The notes under the pieces were generated by a model that was not told the DNA's origin, ran no database searches, and saw only the letters and a list, made by a program, of their open reading frames with translations. 37,009 nt of DNA. It comes from Planctomycetales bacterium. GTDB taxonomy: Bacteria; Planctomycetota; Planctomycetia; Isosphaerales; Isosphaeraceae. Positions 5,952-18,825 of the stretch are shown in pieces. A program made the translations under genes and the position numbers. Every line of letters starts with the position of its first letter. Position 1 is the stretch's first letter. Location: NCBI GenBank assembly GCA_027449865.1, contig DAIDKV010000133.1, positions 1-37,009 on the forward strand. The letters run 5' to 3'.

Positions 5952-5961
5952 GCTCCGACCG
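5952..5961. repeat. target site duplication, left copy
   Basis: gctccgaccg directly outside the left inverted repeat, identical in all 10 bases to 9765-9774. A 10-bp duplication fits the 8-10 bp known for ISAs1-family elements and shows that the outer element arrived as one unit. Confidence 0.95.
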
Positions 5962-5981
5962 CAGGGCCGTTTCATTCTCAG
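5962..5981. repeat. terminal inverted repeat, left end of the IS
   Basis: cagggccgtttcattctcag. Its reverse complement matches 9745-9764 (ctgaacaggaaaccgccctg) at 16 of 20 positions, including the outer GCCCTG. It overlaps the transposase stop codon at 5978-5980. Confidence 0.92.
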
Positions 5982-6190
5982 ATCGGGGTTGACAGGATCT
6001 CGATCGACTTCTCCGGGTGGCAGACGTAATGTCGCGTCGCCACCGCGGCACTCTTATGGCCCCGGCGATGGAACAAGAAGATGACGATGTTCCTCAACAC
6101 GGCCATGACCTGCGTCGAGGACCCTTTTCGGATGCGGCTGGCGTCCTCGCGCAGCGTCCCGTCGCGCACCCCATGCAGGCCGTTCTCGAT
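5978..6190 (-). pseudogene. ISAs1 transposase, C-terminal part cut off by the nested element
   Basis: In-frame continuation of the transposase begun at 9664. Read on the minus strand it starts IENGLHGVRDGTLREDASRI and continues through RKGSSTQVMAVLRNIVIFLF to the end ILSTPI. This is the conserved C-terminal region of ISAs1-family transposases (EN-LH-VRD----ED--R-R-G). The last 68 codons follow the insertion point. Alone it has no catalytic residue. An ATG at 6232, inside the nested element, would give a fortuitous 84-residue ORF. The join with 8729-9664 across the 7-bp repeat is in frame. Confidence 0.9.
6184..6190. repeat. 7-bp direct repeat, left junction of the nested element
   Basis: tctcgat, identical to 8728-8734. 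On the transposase strand it reads atcgaga, the IE-N codons of the HWGIEN motif. The two copies are 2544 bp apart, a multiple of 3, so collapsing them restores the reading frame. It is either the recombination core of a serine recombinase or a short duplication. Confidence 0.8.
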
Positions 6191-6218
6191 GGGCCTGTCA
6201 TACTGCCCTCCAAGGCAC

Positions 6219-6230
6219 AAGTTGTGTGAC
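6219..6230 (+). repeat. subterminal inverted motif, left end of nested element
   Basis: aagttgtgtgac. The reverse complement of the opposite copy at 8687-8698 is aacttgtgcgac, 10 of 12 identical. The overlapping 9-mer gcacaagtt also occurs as a direct repeat at 6215-6223 and 8690-8698. If the ends were joined at that 9-mer they would form the near-perfect palindrome gtcgcacaagttgtgtgac. Possible recombinase-binding site. Confidence 0.55.
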
Positions 6231-6281
6231 ATAGGGATCGAGTCGCATCGGCTCGACCCCCTCGGGATCAGTTGAACGAGA

Positions 6282-8419
6282 TCAGTCGCCGCGTGGCCCC
6301 GGTGTTCGCAAGCGGGCCAGCCGCTCCTGATGATTCCAGAGTCGGGGGCATTCTTTCAACGCCCGCAGGCGGTCCAACTCCGTCGCGTCGGCCCAGACCG
6401 CCCAAGGGCCGCCACGTCCACCTACCTGGCGAGAGTGCATCCAGCCCTTCTTTCGCCAGCCGTGCACCGTGTAAGGCGATAAGGCCAGGGTCTCCGCCAG
6501 TTCGTGCAGCCACACCTCGCCCGAGGCCAGAACGCCCTCCGCGGTCTGGCGAGGCACGCGCAGCCTCAGTCCCAGTTCGTGGAGCAACCGTCGCACCATC
6601 CCGTCCGTGAACTGGGTCGCCCGCTTCGGCGGCCGGAAACCTTCCCGGCCGAGGATCGCCGCGATCGCCCTCGGCGTCTCCCCGGCTCCGAGCAGCGCCG
6701 CCAAGCGGTCCGAGAGCGATCGCCTTTCGCGTTTGTCTTTATATCGATTTACTTCCCTGGGCAGCATCCGCTCCCGCACCGCTCCTCCGGCCCATTCGAT
6801 CGTCGCTTGCACATGATCATTCGAGGGAACGACCGTCAGGACCACCCGGTCGATGAGGAGCCTCGCGATCTGGCGTCGGTCTGCGTGCGTCGTCGTCGGG
6901 GCATGCCACAGGGCTGGCACCTCCGCAGCCAGGCGGCGGATCCGCTCCCGGTCGGTCTCCCCCAATACGCGCGGCTGCGCCCTGAGGAAACGATCGAAGT
7001 CCTCCTCCGCTTCTCGGACGGCCTGCAACGCCTCATCCCAGCGACGCTCCAGGGTGCGGCCCACCAGGCGATTCTCCGGTTCGCAGGCCTGGTATTGCCG
7101 GCCGGTTCGATCGGCTTCGTACCGCGCCCGCTCGATCCGGCGCTCCCAGTCGCCGATCACCTGGCGTCGCTGCTCATCGACCCGCGACGCGGCATCGAGG
7201 CTGGCGTCCAGGGCCGCCGGTTGCAAGGCCACCAGGACCTCCTGGGCCACCCAGGCCTCAATCGCCATCGCCGAGACCGATTGACAGAGCGGGAGGCCAT
7301 AGTCCGACCGCAACGTGCTGCAGACGTACGTCGGGCAGCGACCGCTCCGCCTGTAGCGGACGTACATCCGATGCCCACATCGCCCGCAACGCACCAGGCC
7401 CGCCAGCAGGGCGGGCCCTTCCCGGACCGCGCCGGCCGACTCGGCTCGGGACCGATTCGCCGCCAACCGAGCCTGGTTCGCCTCGAACCGTTCCCAGCTG
7501 ATGTATGCCGGGTACCGGTCCTTCAAGAAGACTTGGCAGTCCTCCGCAGCCAGCCCGCTGGCGCGGCCACCGCTGGGACTCCCGGGCTTCCGACGGCGGG
7601 GATCGACCGGACGGAATCCATAGATGTAAGCTCCCGCATAGATCGGATGGCGGAGGATGTAGCGGACGGTCTCCCGGCCCGGAGGCCGCCGGTCCAATCC
7701 CCCCCGATCGGGTCCGCTGCGCCGACGTAACGGCATCCGGATGCCGCAGGCGATCAGATGGCGAAGGACCCCATGGACCGTCCCCTGGCGATCGAACTGA
7801 TCGAAGACCAGTCGGACGATCTCCTGGACCTGCTCGTCCGGGTCGAAGGTGACCTCCCCGGCCGGCGACTTGACGTACCCGACCGGGACGCCGACCACCA
7901 ACTCCCCGCGACGGGCCTTGTTCAATTTCCCCTGGGACATCCTTTGGTTGAGAATATGCAATTCCGCTTCGTTCATCATGCCGGTCAGTCCGAGTAACAG
8001 GCGGTCCGAGTATTCGGTCGGGTCGTAGATCGACTCCGCGTCGGCGAGCAGGACGCGGAATCGGCCGCAGAGCTCGAAGAGGTGATGCCAATCCTTGCAG
8101 GACCGAGCCAGCCGGCTCATCTCCAGACCGAGGATCAGCCCCACCCGATCCAGGGCGACCTCGGCGAGCAACCGCTGGAATCCCGGCCGGCCTTCGATCG
8201 ATTGCCGCTCTTACCCAGGTCGTCGATCACCCGGATCTGGGGTCGCGACCAACCCAGGGCCACGGCCCGATCGGTCAAGGCATATTGGCGGGCAGTGGAT
8301 TCCTGATGCTCGAGGACCTGCTGTGGCGTCGACTGCCGGACATAAACGACGGCGGCCCGGTCGAGATGCCAGGACTTGAGCTTCGGGGATGGGGGCGTGT
8401 CACGCGAGGGGGTGATCAT
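6282..8419 (-). pseudogene. large serine recombinase, frameshifted
   Basis: The gene lies in two frames. The first, from the ATG at 8419, carries the start of the resolvase domain with nucleophile Ser30 (AAVVYVRQSTPQQ) and reaches VIDDLGKSGNRSKAGR. The second, open from 8171, continues at once with LLAEVALDRVGLILGLEMSR and holds the rest of the catalytic domain. It also holds the recombinase domain (NKARRGELVVGVPVGYV), a zinc ribbon (LVRCGRCGHRMYV with a later CSTLRSDYGLPLC), a long coiled coil and a C-terminal HTH-like segment ending near WADATELDRLRALKE. The switch falls at about 8181-8192, where gccggccgg suggests loss of one ccgg unit. Joined, the protein would be about 713 residues, normal for the family. 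It would catalyse site-specific integration and excision. Either the gene is dead or frameshifting rescues it; I favour dead. Confidence 0.9.
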
Positions 8420-8596
8420 ATTTTCCCTCCCCCGGCGCCGTCGCGCCTGCCTCCAGGGTACGTGCGAGGAGTTCGGCGAGGAGGCGGTGGAGCCTCCGCC
8501 GACGATCCGGTGGGAGTTGGGTCCAGATCGCGGTCAGTGGGTTCGGCGGAGGAACTGTGGGCGGGGGGGGACGTAGGTGGAGTCGTTGTTGAGCAT
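8400..8596 (-). CDS. small ORF of the nested element, needs a frame change at a C8 tract
   Basis: The ATG at 8596 has a good Shine-Dalgarno (ggagg, 6 nt upstream) and begins MLNNDSTYVPP, but its own frame stops at 8534 after 20 residues. At 8563-8570 the coding strand has eight C in a row. A -1 shift (or one extra C) there leads into a frame with good coding character (TAIWTQLPPDRRRRLHRLLA, ELLARTLEAGATAPGEGKYD) that stops at 8400, overlapping the recombinase start by 20 nt. The result would be a basic helical protein of about 65 residues. Small ORFs directly upstream of such recombinases are common and could be directionality or DNA-binding factors. Whether the shift is programmed slippage, mutation or a different start is unresolved. 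Confidence 0.4.
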
Positions 8597-8686
8597 GAGG
8601 TGCCTCCGTGGTCCTGAGAGCTTCTGTCGCTCCACGCGGCCAACGCCAACAGGGCGTCTACGGCGATGGTAACCGGCCCTTCCGGC

Positions 8687-8698
8687 GTCGCACAAGTT
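8687..8698 (-). repeat. subterminal inverted motif, right end of nested element
   Basis: gtcgcacaagtt; partner of 6219-6230 in inverted orientation (10/12). It lies 29 bp inside the right tctcgat repeat and contains the 9-mer gcacaagtt that is also found at 6215-6223. Confidence 0.55.
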
Positions 8699-8727
8699 AT
8701 CGCTTCGTGGGTCTTCTGGCTGGTTGA

Positions 8728-8734
8728 TCTCGAT
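8728..8734. repeat. 7-bp direct repeat, right junction of the nested element
   Basis: tctcgat, identical to 6184-6190. Read on the minus strand it follows cactggggg (HWG), so the inner element begins at the catalytic-glutamate codon of the transposase. Confidence 0.8.
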
Positions 8735-9664
8735 CCCCCAGTGGCCTCGCGTCAGCCGCAACAGCGCCGTCGCATCGGCCCGAGGGCGCGACAAGCTGGT
8801 GATCCCCAGCACGACCTCCCTCTCGACCTTCTCACCGATGCGACGCTCACGTTCCAGGCGGAAGACTTGCGCGCAGCCGGCCCAGTCCGCGCCCAGGTAT
8901 TCACTGAGCGACGACGTGACCTCAATCGACCGCTTCTCTAGCCGGCCGTGCCCCTTGTCGACCTCGCAGGCCCGCTCGATCTCCGCTTCACGCCGCGCCG
9001 CCTGGAGGGGGGAAAGGCCGGCCAGAGGCTCGGCGAAGGCGGCTGCGATGTCCTGGACGAGAGTCGGTTGATTGTCCTTCGCCGGCAGGATGTAATCCCC
9101 TCCGCCCTCGATCACCTCGGCGCAGAGACCACGCTGGGTGAAGATAGCATCACCGCTGATGACCTTGCCCTTGATGGGCAACACCCCCAAGAGCTCCAGC
9201 GCCGCCTTATGCTCGTTGGTCTTGGCATCGACCCGGAGTTGGGCCAGGACCGCCTTGACGTCGGGGGCGTAAGCGCTGACCAGGTGGACCCCGGGCGTCT
9301 CGCGGTCGCGGCTCCCCCGCGCGGTCTTGCCGTCGAAGGCGATGTGGGGGGCGTCACCGGGCTCGAGCCGCCCGCGGATCCACTGCCCGACCCGCGTCTC
9401 GAAGTCGGCGACGTCGATGCGGCGGAAGACGCGCGAGTAAGTGGCCTTGCAGAGGCCCCACCTGGTGGTGAAGCCCAGGAGCTTGAGGAACTCCCCGCCT
9501 CGCTCCTTGCCGTACTGGACGATGGCCTCATAGCTGGTCATGCCGGCGAGCATGGCGACTACAGCCAAGCCGAGCAAGGCCGGCAGGGGGTGCCGTTTGC
9601 CGCGGGCAGAGCGCGGATCATGAAGGCCCTCAAGGAGTTCCATCAAGGTGACGCCGGCTTCCAT
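8729..9664 (-). pseudogene. ISAs1-family transposase, N-terminal and catalytic part
   Basis: DDE transposase of the ISAs1 (H-repeat-like) family. From the ATG at 9664 it has the N-terminal associated domain (LMELLEGLHDPRSARGKRHP, then a hydrophobic stretch) and the catalytic domain with IAFDGKTARGS (first Asp), VISGDAIFTQ (second Asp) and RGHWGIE (Glu, the last codon before the insertion at 8728). All three catalytic residues are therefore upstream of the break, and 312 of 380 codons remain. The open frame runs on into the nested element to 8534. That adds 64 foreign residues in place of the native C-terminal 68 and gives a 376-residue chimeric ORF. Whether the chimera is made or active is unknown. 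Confidence 0.9.
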
Positions 9665-9744
9665 GCCCCAACCCTCATGCGATGTCCATCATGGTGTATC
9701 GGCCACGGCGAATGAACTTAACCAATGGCATCACTTGAAGCTAG

Positions 9745-9764
9745 CTGAACAGGAAACCGCCCTG
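9745..9764. repeat. terminal inverted repeat, right end of the IS
   Basis: ctgaacaggaaaccgccctg, matching the reverse complement of 5962-5981 at 16/20 positions. It lies 81 bp upstream of the transposase ATG, the usual position for the transposase-proximal end. Confidence 0.92.
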
Positions 9765-9774
9765 GCTCCGACCG
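9765..9774. repeat. target site duplication, right copy
   Basis: gctccgaccg, identical to 5952-5961. Confidence 0.95.
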
Positions 9775-16215: not shown

Positions 16216-18423
16216 TCAGTGGATCACTGTCTGGCCGCTCGCAGCGACGCCCTGCGGCGATGGTGCCACCTGAGGCGAGGCAGCCACGACCGGATCGCAA
16301 CGGACGACCACCGGGACCCGCACGCAGACCTCGACCGGAACCTGCTTGCAGATCGTCTTTGGAACGCAGACCGGCTTCATCTCGGTGACCTGACGAGCGA
16401 CGGTCACTGGGCAGCAGATCGACTTCGTCTCGCAGACCTGACGGCAGGTCTTCACCGGAACTCTGCGAACGCATTGCACGGTTTGCATCTCGCAGATTGT
16501 CTGCGGCACGGTTTTCACGCAGGTCTCCGTCACCATCTCGCAGACCTTCTCGCAAACCCGCTTGACGCAAGGATCGGCAACCATCCGGCAGGTCGTCACC
16601 GGCACTTGCTTGACACAGGTCTCGGCGACCATGCGGCAGGTCGTCACCGGCACCTGCTTCACACAGGTCTGAGTGACCATCCGGCAGGTCGTCACCGGAA
16701 CGCGCTTCACGCAGGTCTGCGGAACCATCCGGGTCACCGTGCAGGGGACCTGCTTGTAAGCACACTCGCGGATCGTCCTTGTCACCGTGTACGGCACCTG
16801 CCGAGTCTGCGTCTCCTTGACGTAGCTGGTGACCGTGTACTGCTCCTGGCGATACGCCGTCTTCGGGCACATCCTGGTCACACAGACCGGAACCTGCTTC
16901 ATGACCGTTCGAGGCTGCATCGTGCAGAAGGTGTACGGCACCGTTTTGGTGCAGGTCTCCTGCACTGTCCGGCAGACCTTCACCGGAACCTGCTTGACGC
17001 ACTCCTGCGTGGTGTACTCGCAGATAGTGACCGGCACCTGCTTGACGTGGCTTTCCTGCACCATCCGGCAAACAGTGACAGGAACCTGTCGTACACACTC
17101 CTCGGCAACCATCCGACAAGTCGTGACAGGAACCTGCTCGCAGACCGTGTACGGGACCTGCTTGCAAATGGTGACAGGAACCTGCTTGCGTACCACCTGT
17201 CGCTCGTAAACGGTGCAGCTGACATTCTCAACGACGGTCCTCGGTGTGCAGACCGGTCGCTCGCACCAGGTTCCTGGGCATTCGACCAGGCACCCATTGA
17301 CGCAGACCGTCTTACCGGGCACGAAGTAGCGTTCCATCGTCGTCTCGTTGACCGTCCGACAAACCTGTTGAGTGACGGTTTTCGGCACGCAGATGGTCTC
17401 GCATTCCTCACGGTAACTGGTCTCGTTCACCGTTTGATAGGAGGTCCGACTTACCGTCTTGTAGCTGGTCGTTTGAACCGGCCGACAGACGGTGTAGCGG
17501 CACTCCTTCATGACGGTTTCCTGCACCGGCCTGCAGACGGTGTAGGTGCAAGAACGCATCTCTGTCCGCTGAACCGGGACCCGAACGGTGTATCGACACT
17601 CGCGGAGTTGGGTCTCCTGTACCTGACGGCAGATCGTGTACGGAACCTGCTTGTAAGCGCACTGGCGAACCGGAACCATCTCGGTGAACGGCTGACACTG
17701 CATCACGGTCTGCTGAACCGGAACCTGTACTGTGTACGGAATGCAACGCGTCTTGACGCTCTGCACGGGCCGGCACACGGTATAGGCACAGGTTTTGTAG
17801 CAAGTCTGCTGCACCGGTCGACAGACGGTGTACTGAACCGTCTTCATCATGGTCTCCTGCACAGGGCGGCAGACCGTGTAGCAGACGTCCTTGTAGCTCA
17901 CCTCGCGGACCGGATGGCTGACGTTGTACGTACTGGTCTTCATCACGGTCTCGCGCACAGGGCGGCAGACCGTGTAGGTCCGCGTTTCCATGTGGGTCTC
18001 GCGGACCGGGCGGCAGACCGTGTACGTCACGTCCTTCCAGATGGTCCGATACACCGGTCGCTGAACCGTGTATGGGACCTGCCGGCAAATCGTCCGGTAA
18101 ACGGGCCGCTGAACCGTGTAAGGCTCCTCGCGAACCGACTCCTCGACGATGTTCCGGACGGTATTGATTGTCCGCGGCTGCATGACCGTCTCGCAGACAG
18201 TCCGCACGCACGGCACATATTGCGTCTCATAGACGGTCTCCGAGACATTCTGGAGGACCGTCTGTCGTTGGAGTTGATATTCCGTGTGCCCACAACACTC
18301 CTGAGGCACCGGGCAATTTCGATGAGATGCACCACCCGCGTAGCTCGCTCCCTGCGCCGGGTGCGCGGCCAGCATCCACCCCGTCCCCAGGGCAAATACG
18401 ACCGACAGCAGTTTTCTCAACAT
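16216..18423 (-). CDS. secreted Cys-rich YTV-repeat protein
   Basis: 735 residues from the ATG at 18423, 6 nt after GGAG; a GTG at 18435 is the alternative. A signal peptide (MLRKLLSVVFALGTGWMLAA) is followed by an almost uninterrupted array of 16-residue units. The N-terminal half is of the type YTVCRPVRETHMETRT. The C-terminal half is of the type CVKQVPVTTCRMVAET. A short break near the centre contains GKTVCVNGCLVECPGTWCERPVC. This is the planctomycete-specific YTV repeat, found in large secreted proteins thought to belong to the proteinaceous cell wall or surface; the exact role is unknown. The very high Cys content and the regular spacing suggest disulfide cross-linked beta structure. The antisense strand is open over the same length, a by-product of repeated codons. 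It is monocistronic and flanked by a terminator. Confidence 0.93.
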   Translation of the reverse strand: MLRKLLSVVFALGTGWMLAAHPAQGASYAGGASHRNCPVPQECCGHTEYQLQRQTVLQNVSETVYETQYVPCVRTVCETVMQPRTINTVRNIVEESVREEPYTVQRPVYRTICRQVPYTVQRPVYRTIWKDVTYTVCRPVRETHMETRTYTVCRPVRETVMKTSTYNVSHPVREVSYKDVCYTVCRPVQETMMKTVQYTVCRPVQQTCYKTCAYTVCRPVQSVKTRCIPYTVQVPVQQTVMQCQPFTEMVPVRQCAYKQVPYTICRQVQETQLRECRYTVRVPVQRTEMRSCTYTVCRPVQETVMKECRYTVCRPVQTTSYKTVSRTSYQTVNETSYREECETICVPKTVTQQVCRTVNETTMERYFVPGKTVCVNGCLVECPGTWCERPVCTPRTVVENVSCTVYERQVVRKQVPVTICKQVPYTVCEQVPVTTCRMVAEECVRQVPVTVCRMVQESHVKQVPVTICEYTTQECVKQVPVKVCRTVQETCTKTVPYTFCTMQPRTVMKQVPVCVTRMCPKTAYRQEQYTVTSYVKETQTRQVPYTVTRTIRECAYKQVPCTVTRMVPQTCVKRVPVTTCRMVTQTCVKQVPVTTCRMVAETCVKQVPVTTCRMVADPCVKRVCEKVCEMVTETCVKTVPQTICEMQTVQCVRRVPVKTCRQVCETKSICCPVTVARQVTEMKPVCVPKTICKQVPVEVCVRVPVVVRCDPVVAASPQVAPSPQGVAASGQTVIH
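16570..16710. repeat. 48-bp tandem repeats coding the 16-residue units
   Basis: Within the YTV gene the 48-bp unit recurs nearly unchanged at least three times here (caggtcgtcaccggcacctg ... cacaggtctc-g-gaccat). Nucleotide identity between units is much higher than in the N-terminal half. This points to recent unit duplication and possible copy-number variation. Confidence 0.75.
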
Positions 18424-18825
18424 CGGACGCTCCACTAAGACATCCCCGACCTACTTCGGCGCTTCATCGGAATCCGGACCGCAAAGACTCCGTCTCCCGT
18501 CCGGGACCGCCAACTCACAGATAACCTTCGTCTCGAACCCTCCGGGCCCTTCAGGAACTTTCTCTAAATTCTCCAGTAATCCGATCTTCCCAAAACGCAC
18601 TGTTTACCCAGAACTCATATAAGTCACGCAATCAGCCTGTATTATCGCGGTATTCGTTGGAGAGACCGGGACTGTTGCGGAAGGAGTGGTCGGCAAGGTT
18701 TGCCGGGATGTTACCCGCGGAATTGAAGAACAGGACTCGGGAGGCATGATCTTCCCCGGAGTGCAGAGATTGGGATAACCTGGCGGGGGTTTTGAGGTCC
18801 GTGAACCACGGCGAGGGAGGCGGTG
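18424..18825. other. divergent intergenic region, YTV gene and SDR gene
   Basis: About 400 bp holding the 5' regions of both divergent genes. Part of it (about 18560-18650) is AT-richer than its surroundings, as expected of promoters, but I could not pick -35/-10 pairs with confidence. No ORF with coding character, RNA gene or strong terminator is seen. A GGGAGG Shine-Dalgarno for the SDR gene is at 18815-18820. Confidence 0.5.

Follow-up and report, generated by a model that had tools for sequence, protein, structure and literature searches.

The window (the whole stretch of planctomycete DNA that we analyzed, 37,009 nucleotides) contains an insertion sequence (IS) of the ISAs1 family whose transposase gene is split by a second mobile element. 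Judging from sequence alone, without an integration assay and without control enzymes, we consider it very probable that the inserted DNA is a 2.5-kb integrative element in which a large serine recombinase (LSR) is the only large gene, and that its attB is the DNA encoding the catalytic-Glu signature of DDE transposases, with the crossover at GA. As judged from our survey of homologous recombinases, insertion at this codon is more than chance.

Positions 5962–9764 are a single ISAs1 copy that is split at the GAG codon of the catalytic Glu by an element of 2544 bp (6188–8731, minus strand, one copy of the GA core included). The ORF at 8534–9664 (minus strand) is an ISAs1 transposase (NCBIfam NF033564, 185 bits vs a cut-off of 70); its genuine N-terminal part, through the catalytic Glu, occupies 8729–9664, and the C-terminal part, from the Glu codon on, occupies 5981–6187 of the same strand, starting at 6187 and reading E-NGLHGVRDGTLREDASRIRKG. 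The first-pass annotation had placed the junction at 8728–8734 and read it as encoding the catalytic Glu, and this is correct: the plus strand is TCTCGAT (reverse complement ATCGAGA), the Glu codon is 8731–8729 and the crossover GA is 8731–8730; the same 7-mer is found at the other end of the element (6184–6190, minus strand; crossover GA at 6187–6186). A 10-bp direct repeat, GCTCCGACCG, at 5952–5961 and 9765–9774 (a third copy of the 10-mer is present in the window) and imperfect terminal repeats in inverted orientation at 5962–5981 and 9745–9764 (16 of 20 bases match between one and the reverse complement of the other, counted by eye) bracket the whole; therefore, both transposase halves are parts of one ISAs1 copy. 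Thus, the host shows what is expected of an ISAs1 element: its transposase is above the NCBIfam cut-off, and the two halves are enclosed by terminal inverted repeats and a target duplication. No intact close ISAs1 that could represent the empty site of this insertion was found in the same genome; the next matches are 32–34% identical over most of their length, accompanied by short fragments.

The split ORF has 376 codons, 312 up to and including the Glu, so the chimera does gain the 64 element-coded residues that were claimed from the first reading. These residues are probably not a designed product, because their frame differs from that of the small ORF A of the element (vide infra); a functional fusion of transposase and element was considered and rejected, both for this reason and for the lack of conservation of the fusion frame. 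Elsewhere in the window, an ORF of 739 residues (16216–18435, minus strand) is built from numerous imperfect V(P)V..C....ET..K repeats.

In its main frame (6282–8171, minus strand), the recombinase contains the end of the Resolvase domain followed by the Recombinase and Zn_ribbon_recom domains; Resolvase, Recombinase and zinc-ribbon matches in that order, all above the Pfam cut-offs in this frame, satisfy the domain test for an LSR. The N-terminal part is in another frame (about 8201–8419, minus strand; the tblastn frame change is near 8201 and the start codon was chosen by eye) and includes the RQS motif of the catalytic serine (read by eye). The gene is broken by the frameshift between the first part and the main frame, and this copy of the element is probably dead. 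Besides the recombinase, the element encodes two small overlapping ORFs, ORF A (..TIAVDALLALAAWSDRSSQDHGG..; 8571–8671) and ORF B (..IWTQLPPDRRRRLHRLLAELLART..; 8417–8545; a similar ORF is present in relatives), both on the minus strand with approximate ends, mutually out of frame and separated by a C8 tract (8563–8570, minus strand; G8 on the plus strand). The relatives also have a tract of C6–C8, located between two small ORFs that precede the recombinase; 28 elements were examined, 18 were readable, and in 15 of these the two ORFs are offset by one and the same frame step (as judged by eye), the exceptions being L002 and L048, which look in frame, and L063, which is shifted otherwise. The tract with its constant frame step suggests programmed slippage. 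It is absent from the seven Streptomyces-type elements, and several members of a second clade have an A-run near that place. No excision protein was found for the elements.

We searched for homologues of the recombinase in several collections. Its own genome contains three matches, and 44 of 99 related genomes have matches at an E-value of 0.001, many of them distant (12 candidates at most were scored per genome). A scan of a public genome collection identified 64 homologous loci in Planctomycetota, Cyanobacteriota, Actinomycetota, Chloroflexota, Pseudomonadota, Acidobacteriota, Myxococcota and Gemmatimonadota, and a plasmid scan identified 359 matching records. The matches in phage records were all distant and partial (15 records, with no match reaching 80% query coverage); a phage origin was rejected, no relative having been confirmed in viral contigs.

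At 46 of the 64 loci, the flanking DNA leads into a DDE transposase at its catalytic-Glu motif; 34 do so on both sides (L033 via its duplicate L006, L034, L035, L039, L040, L043–L050, L052–L055, L057–L059, L063, L064, L066, L068 via its duplicate L012, L071, L078, L079, L082, L084, L085, L088 and L090–L092) and 12 on one side (L036, L037, L041, L067, L069, L075, L076, L081, L083, L087, L089 and L093). The transposases are of the IS4, IS5, IS701, ISAs1, IS630, IS3, IS6, IS21 and IS481 types, with ISNCY in the wider group; Glu-codon junctions on both sides are found in IS4, IS5, IS701, ISAs1, IS630 and IS3 transposases. Two loci are in other mobile genes, that is, an IS256-type transposase, not at the Glu (L065), and a group II intron reverse transcriptase (L070); the remaining 16, several of which are fragments or contig ends, are outside the assignment (L038, L042, L051, L056, L060–L062, L072–L074, L077, L080, L086 and L094–L096). 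Further loci have no explained target (L015, L017, L018, L020 and L173; also L097, L101, L104 and L112), and L014 and L021 are in IS3 genes, away from the Glu codon (read by eye, with weak model support for L014). The survey counts loci, not independent events: 11 loci represent one Leptolyngbya IS, close copies inflate the counts, and the independence of landings was examined in one genome only. The junctions were set partly by eye; L093 was assigned from its left side by eye, and L058, in which the left junction is TG instead of TC, by evidence other than the automatic joined reading. The halves that flank L007 and L103 come from two different transposases (the left half of L103 has no Pfam match), a pattern that recombination between two inserted copies could produce.

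Recombinase homologues at unrelated sites, lacking transposase halves on their flanks, would have refuted the first-pass annotation; for most readable loci this is not what is found. Its broader inference, that IS genes are the preferred target of this recombinase group, is supported and widened by the 46 of 64 loci at the Glu motif, with the qualification that some sister clades insert elsewhere. ISAs1 specificity of the whole group is rejected, since among the resolved loci it holds for the window clade only.

Profile models of the transposase families locate the split at a constant position. In the window clade, all six elements for which both junctions are fixed (window included) interrupt their ISAs1 transposase at one and the same codon, and the N-terminal halves of the other five (L002, L004, L006, L035 and L034, the last with a score below the cut-off) all end at position 276 of 314 in the ISAs1 model. 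Similarly, N-terminal halves stop at 221–222 of 258 in the IS5_3 model (7/7) and at 122 of 146 in the DDE_3 model (2/2). Other halves match the models for IS4 (L039, L011, L098, L007, L045 and L155), IS5 (L048, L053, L063, L111, L054, L057 and L079) and IS701 (L099); further matches are to IS21, IS481, DDE_3 and the IS6-type DDE_Tnp_IS240, and DDE_Tnp_1, DDE_5 or rve matched six of the ten halves run (L106 was just below the cut-off; L103, L045, L097 and L101 gave none). The models were run on part of the halves, and several matches score under the curated cut-off, as half-length sequences can be expected to do; the IS630 match for L012 is weak, and L055, L037 and L158 have no model match, so their assignment rests on the motif.

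The two attachment sites share the GA, and most also share a TGG located seven bases upstream of it (24 of 31 attB sites). The attP is an imperfect inverted repeat about the GA that is nearly perfect in the Streptomyces elements (by eye). Conservation in the attB is concentrated at the first and second positions of codons, a pattern that conservation of the protein would produce even by itself. Elements are found in both the sense and antisense orientations relative to the transposase, the dinucleotide on the element strand being GA or TC depending on the orientation, and this orientation has changed several times on the recombinase tree (a quick method with SH-aLRT support only; unresolved rows were treated as their own group). 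When any GA/TC of each joined target ORF is considered eligible, the concentration at the Glu codon has a log10 p of −63 (31 targets); when only TGG-N6-GA sites are eligible, log10 p is −8.9 (24 targets with the motif at Glu). This set excludes four non-transposase sites, L058 and three near-duplicates; the remaining targets are not all independent.

We propose that the recombinase joins the attP of the element to an attB that is DNA for the catalytic-Glu signature (R-W-x-x-E in most cases, P-x-E in IS630). Strand exchange would occur at the GA dinucleotide that opens the Glu codon, duplicating no target bases, keeping a Glu codon at either end and dividing the transposase gene. The bases common to attB and attP fall on non-wobble positions (the TGG of Trp in most targets, the GA of Glu), and because of this one enzyme could land in unrelated IS families; the element may thereby gain many equivalent, harmless and mobile landing sites. 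The sequences themselves show the junctions, an empty site, repeated landing within one genome and the division of the gene. We infer, and have not observed, that the enzyme alone causes insertion, that selection for harmless sites adds to its recognition and that the IS is disarmed, that is, loses activity.

Identical copies of one element within a genome provide a direct view of target choice. A full scan of the planctomycete genome G041 identified 13 identical copies, and the block they share ends at GAG on both sides; 10 are at the Glu codon of a DDE transposase (L098, L099, L100, L102, L103, L105–L108 and L172; L100 has only a short open stretch on the N-side), and three (L097, L101 and L104) are in other genes that are not recognized transposases. 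A 74% relative (L173) is present in the same genome. The exact uninterrupted site of L099 (120 bases) is present in L126, an intact IS701 copy of G041, and 52 of these bases are also present in L130, an IS701 copy that is broken elsewhere. With this empty site, which we have for the relative L099 only, the insertion test for an LSR is met, that is, exact insertion without target duplication, a dinucleotide core and an inverted-repeat attP. In the genome G030, three of four identical copies split IS5-type transposases at the Glu, and the fourth (L112) is not in a recognized transposase. Of these 17 repeated-copy insertions, then, four are not at a transposase Glu codon. These four, the attB consensus in G041, which is weak outside the core, and the existence of multi-targeting LSRs (PMC10083194) are compatible with a recombinase so relaxed that it lands at many GA sites, with only the landings in expendable IS genes persisting. 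We consider this explanation possible but unlikely, because survivorship predicts landings throughout IS genes and in intergenic DNA, whereas the resolved hits in DDE genes fall on one codon; selection for expendable sites can add to recognition of the attB but cannot replace it.

A single landing followed by copying of the carrier IS by transposition would also produce many copies, all representing one event. Leptolyngbya PCC 7375, with 11 copies of one IS that each carry the element at the same codon, appears at first to be such a case: the outer flanks differ, and the 9-bp duplications are exact in nine of the ten readable IS copies (not in L091). However, 69 of 1325 columns vary in the IS vs nine of 2565 in the element (Fisher p 9e-24), and the mean pairwise divergence is 1.45% for the IS vs 0.062% for the element; the element is 23-fold less diverged than the IS halves that carry it and, therefore, has landed repeatedly. 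The ten 97–100% copies of the transposase half that were found in the genome all share a 202-aa open frame, as expected if each is split; thus, these ten IS copies look interrupted. In G041, moreover, the identical element is carried by different IS families. As a general explanation, copying with the carrier is contradicted by the divergence of IS vs element and is rejected; we regard it as improbable for the group, and it may still explain a near-identical subset (L040, L043, L044, L046 and L047). Two loci, L045 and L066, do share a 4.07-kb composite. IS-rich genomes often nest one element within another, so nesting by chance, without any targeting, also deserves mention; the same codon is hit in many unrelated transposases from several phyla, the homologue survey refutes chance, and we assign it practically no weight. 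Recognition of the catalytic-Glu DNA remains our preferred explanation.

Some related elements use other fixed sites. In the second clade (L084, L088, L085 and L078, in IS21, IS481 and IS3 genes), the common core is AA, the dinucleotide that opens the codon located four positions ahead of the Glu. A relative of the window recombinase is encoded by an element of pNGR234a at about 33.9–37.3 kb that is located in an ISNCY transposase (N-terminal half 322 bits, cut-off 250) at PQAK|GRVE. We read nine such elements (L163 and eight chosen among 30 matches listed of 220 matching records), and in all nine the N-terminal half stops at the codon four before the Glu; the models are ISNCY (L163), IS21 (L164, L165, L166, L169 and L171) and IS3 (L167 and L168), with L170 not run because its flanks repeat L164, L167 read on the right side only and the C-terminal half of L171 fitting least well. 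The second-clade N-half match to the IS21 model ends at 226 of 294 in 9/9, and these elements and the second-clade loci form one clade in the tree (16 rows plus L074, itself unresolved). All 16 plasmid regions that we read are in mobile-element genes; these were picked among 60 matches listed of 359, were read mostly on one side and are not a random sample. Five are at the Glu of a DDE transposase (L118, L155 and L158–L160; L158 by motif only), seven are in IS21 istB (L117, L151–L154, L156 and L161; the Pfam istB match ends at 206–210 of 238 in all seven), three are in group II intron reverse transcriptases (L119, L120 and L157) and one is in an IS66 transposase (L162). The RVT_1 match begins at 13–15 in L120, L157 and L070; L119 is split near 78. 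The istB and reverse-transcriptase targets are those of further clades (a third and a fourth).

Some sister clades are at other sites: L016 and L114 are beside a gene that does not look mobile (by eye). This sister pair lies between gene halves (..LQDGSI.. and ..DGSIKLT.., by eye), and the right halves have no NCBIfam match. The left flanks of L003 (own genome) and L022, in a more distant clade, adjoin the same palindromic repeat, CCCTCGCTGGCGCGTCGGG (by eye), a different kind of repeated target.

Taken more broadly, and with only slightly more confidence than doubt, we suggest that serine-recombinase elements form a guild, spread over several bacterial phyla, that exploits other mobile elements. 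Each clade would have evolved an attB from the non-degenerate codon positions of one conserved motif. In DDE transposases this would be the catalytic Glu, in integrase-type transposases the codon four positions ahead of it, in IS21 istB a fixed site and in group II introns the point where the reverse-transcriptase domain begins. The members of the guild would be natural IS silencers, able to saturate an IS family as in Leptolyngbya. If this is true, they are mobile elements specialized in parasitizing other mobile elements via catalytic codons that are hard for an IS to mutate away; they would explain some nested IS islands, act as a natural brake on IS expansion, explain why NGRIS-4 has reportedly been found only in other ISs and provide a ready set of recombinases and attB sites for asking how an LSR tolerates wobble positions.

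Our literature search, which covered titles and the starts of abstracts and left most subscription journals out of scope, found no description of an LSR that targets the catalytic codons of transposases. Homing introns and inteins use a conserved active-site codon as a landing site; in contrast, the host gene here appears simply split, although no search for a splicing signal was made. The abstract on NGRIS-4 is said to report that all nine copies are within other ISs, and that paper is not known to give a catalytic-motif rule. The work, Perret et al. (1997, J Bacteriol 179:7488) on NGRIS-4 and NGRRS-1 of Sinorhizobium fredii NGR234, is cited in PMC4339197. From its position and size we infer that the pNGR234a element is NGRIS-4, so an element that is apparently in print seems to belong to the second clade. 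It resembles the window element in having a related recombinase and in being inside the transposase of another IS; it differs in its length (about 3.3 kb), its extra ORFs, its AA crossover four codons before the Glu, its antisense orientation and its separate clade. The window element, with its crossover at the Glu, sense orientation, length of 2.5 kb and other position in the tree, does not qualify as a member of the NGRIS-4 clade.

The IS607 family is similar in that a short autonomous element is moved by a serine recombinase; the IS607 enzymes are small. Their domain order is inverted (PMC4058570), whereas the window protein is a large recombinase with the ordinary order, so the element is not an IS607 member. 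The multi-targeting LSRs (Durrant et al., 2022; PMC10083194) likewise have Resolvase, Recombinase and zinc-ribbon domains, and the G041 relative is like them in that an identical element is found in more than three kinds of target gene (IS701-type, IS4-type, DDE_5 and others). DUF4368, which that study gives as present in 63% of the multi-targeting clade, was not detected in the window protein. The targets named there include magnesium chelatase, prolyl isomerase and competence genes; the targets of the present elements, in contrast, are mostly fixed codons of the enzymes of mobile elements.
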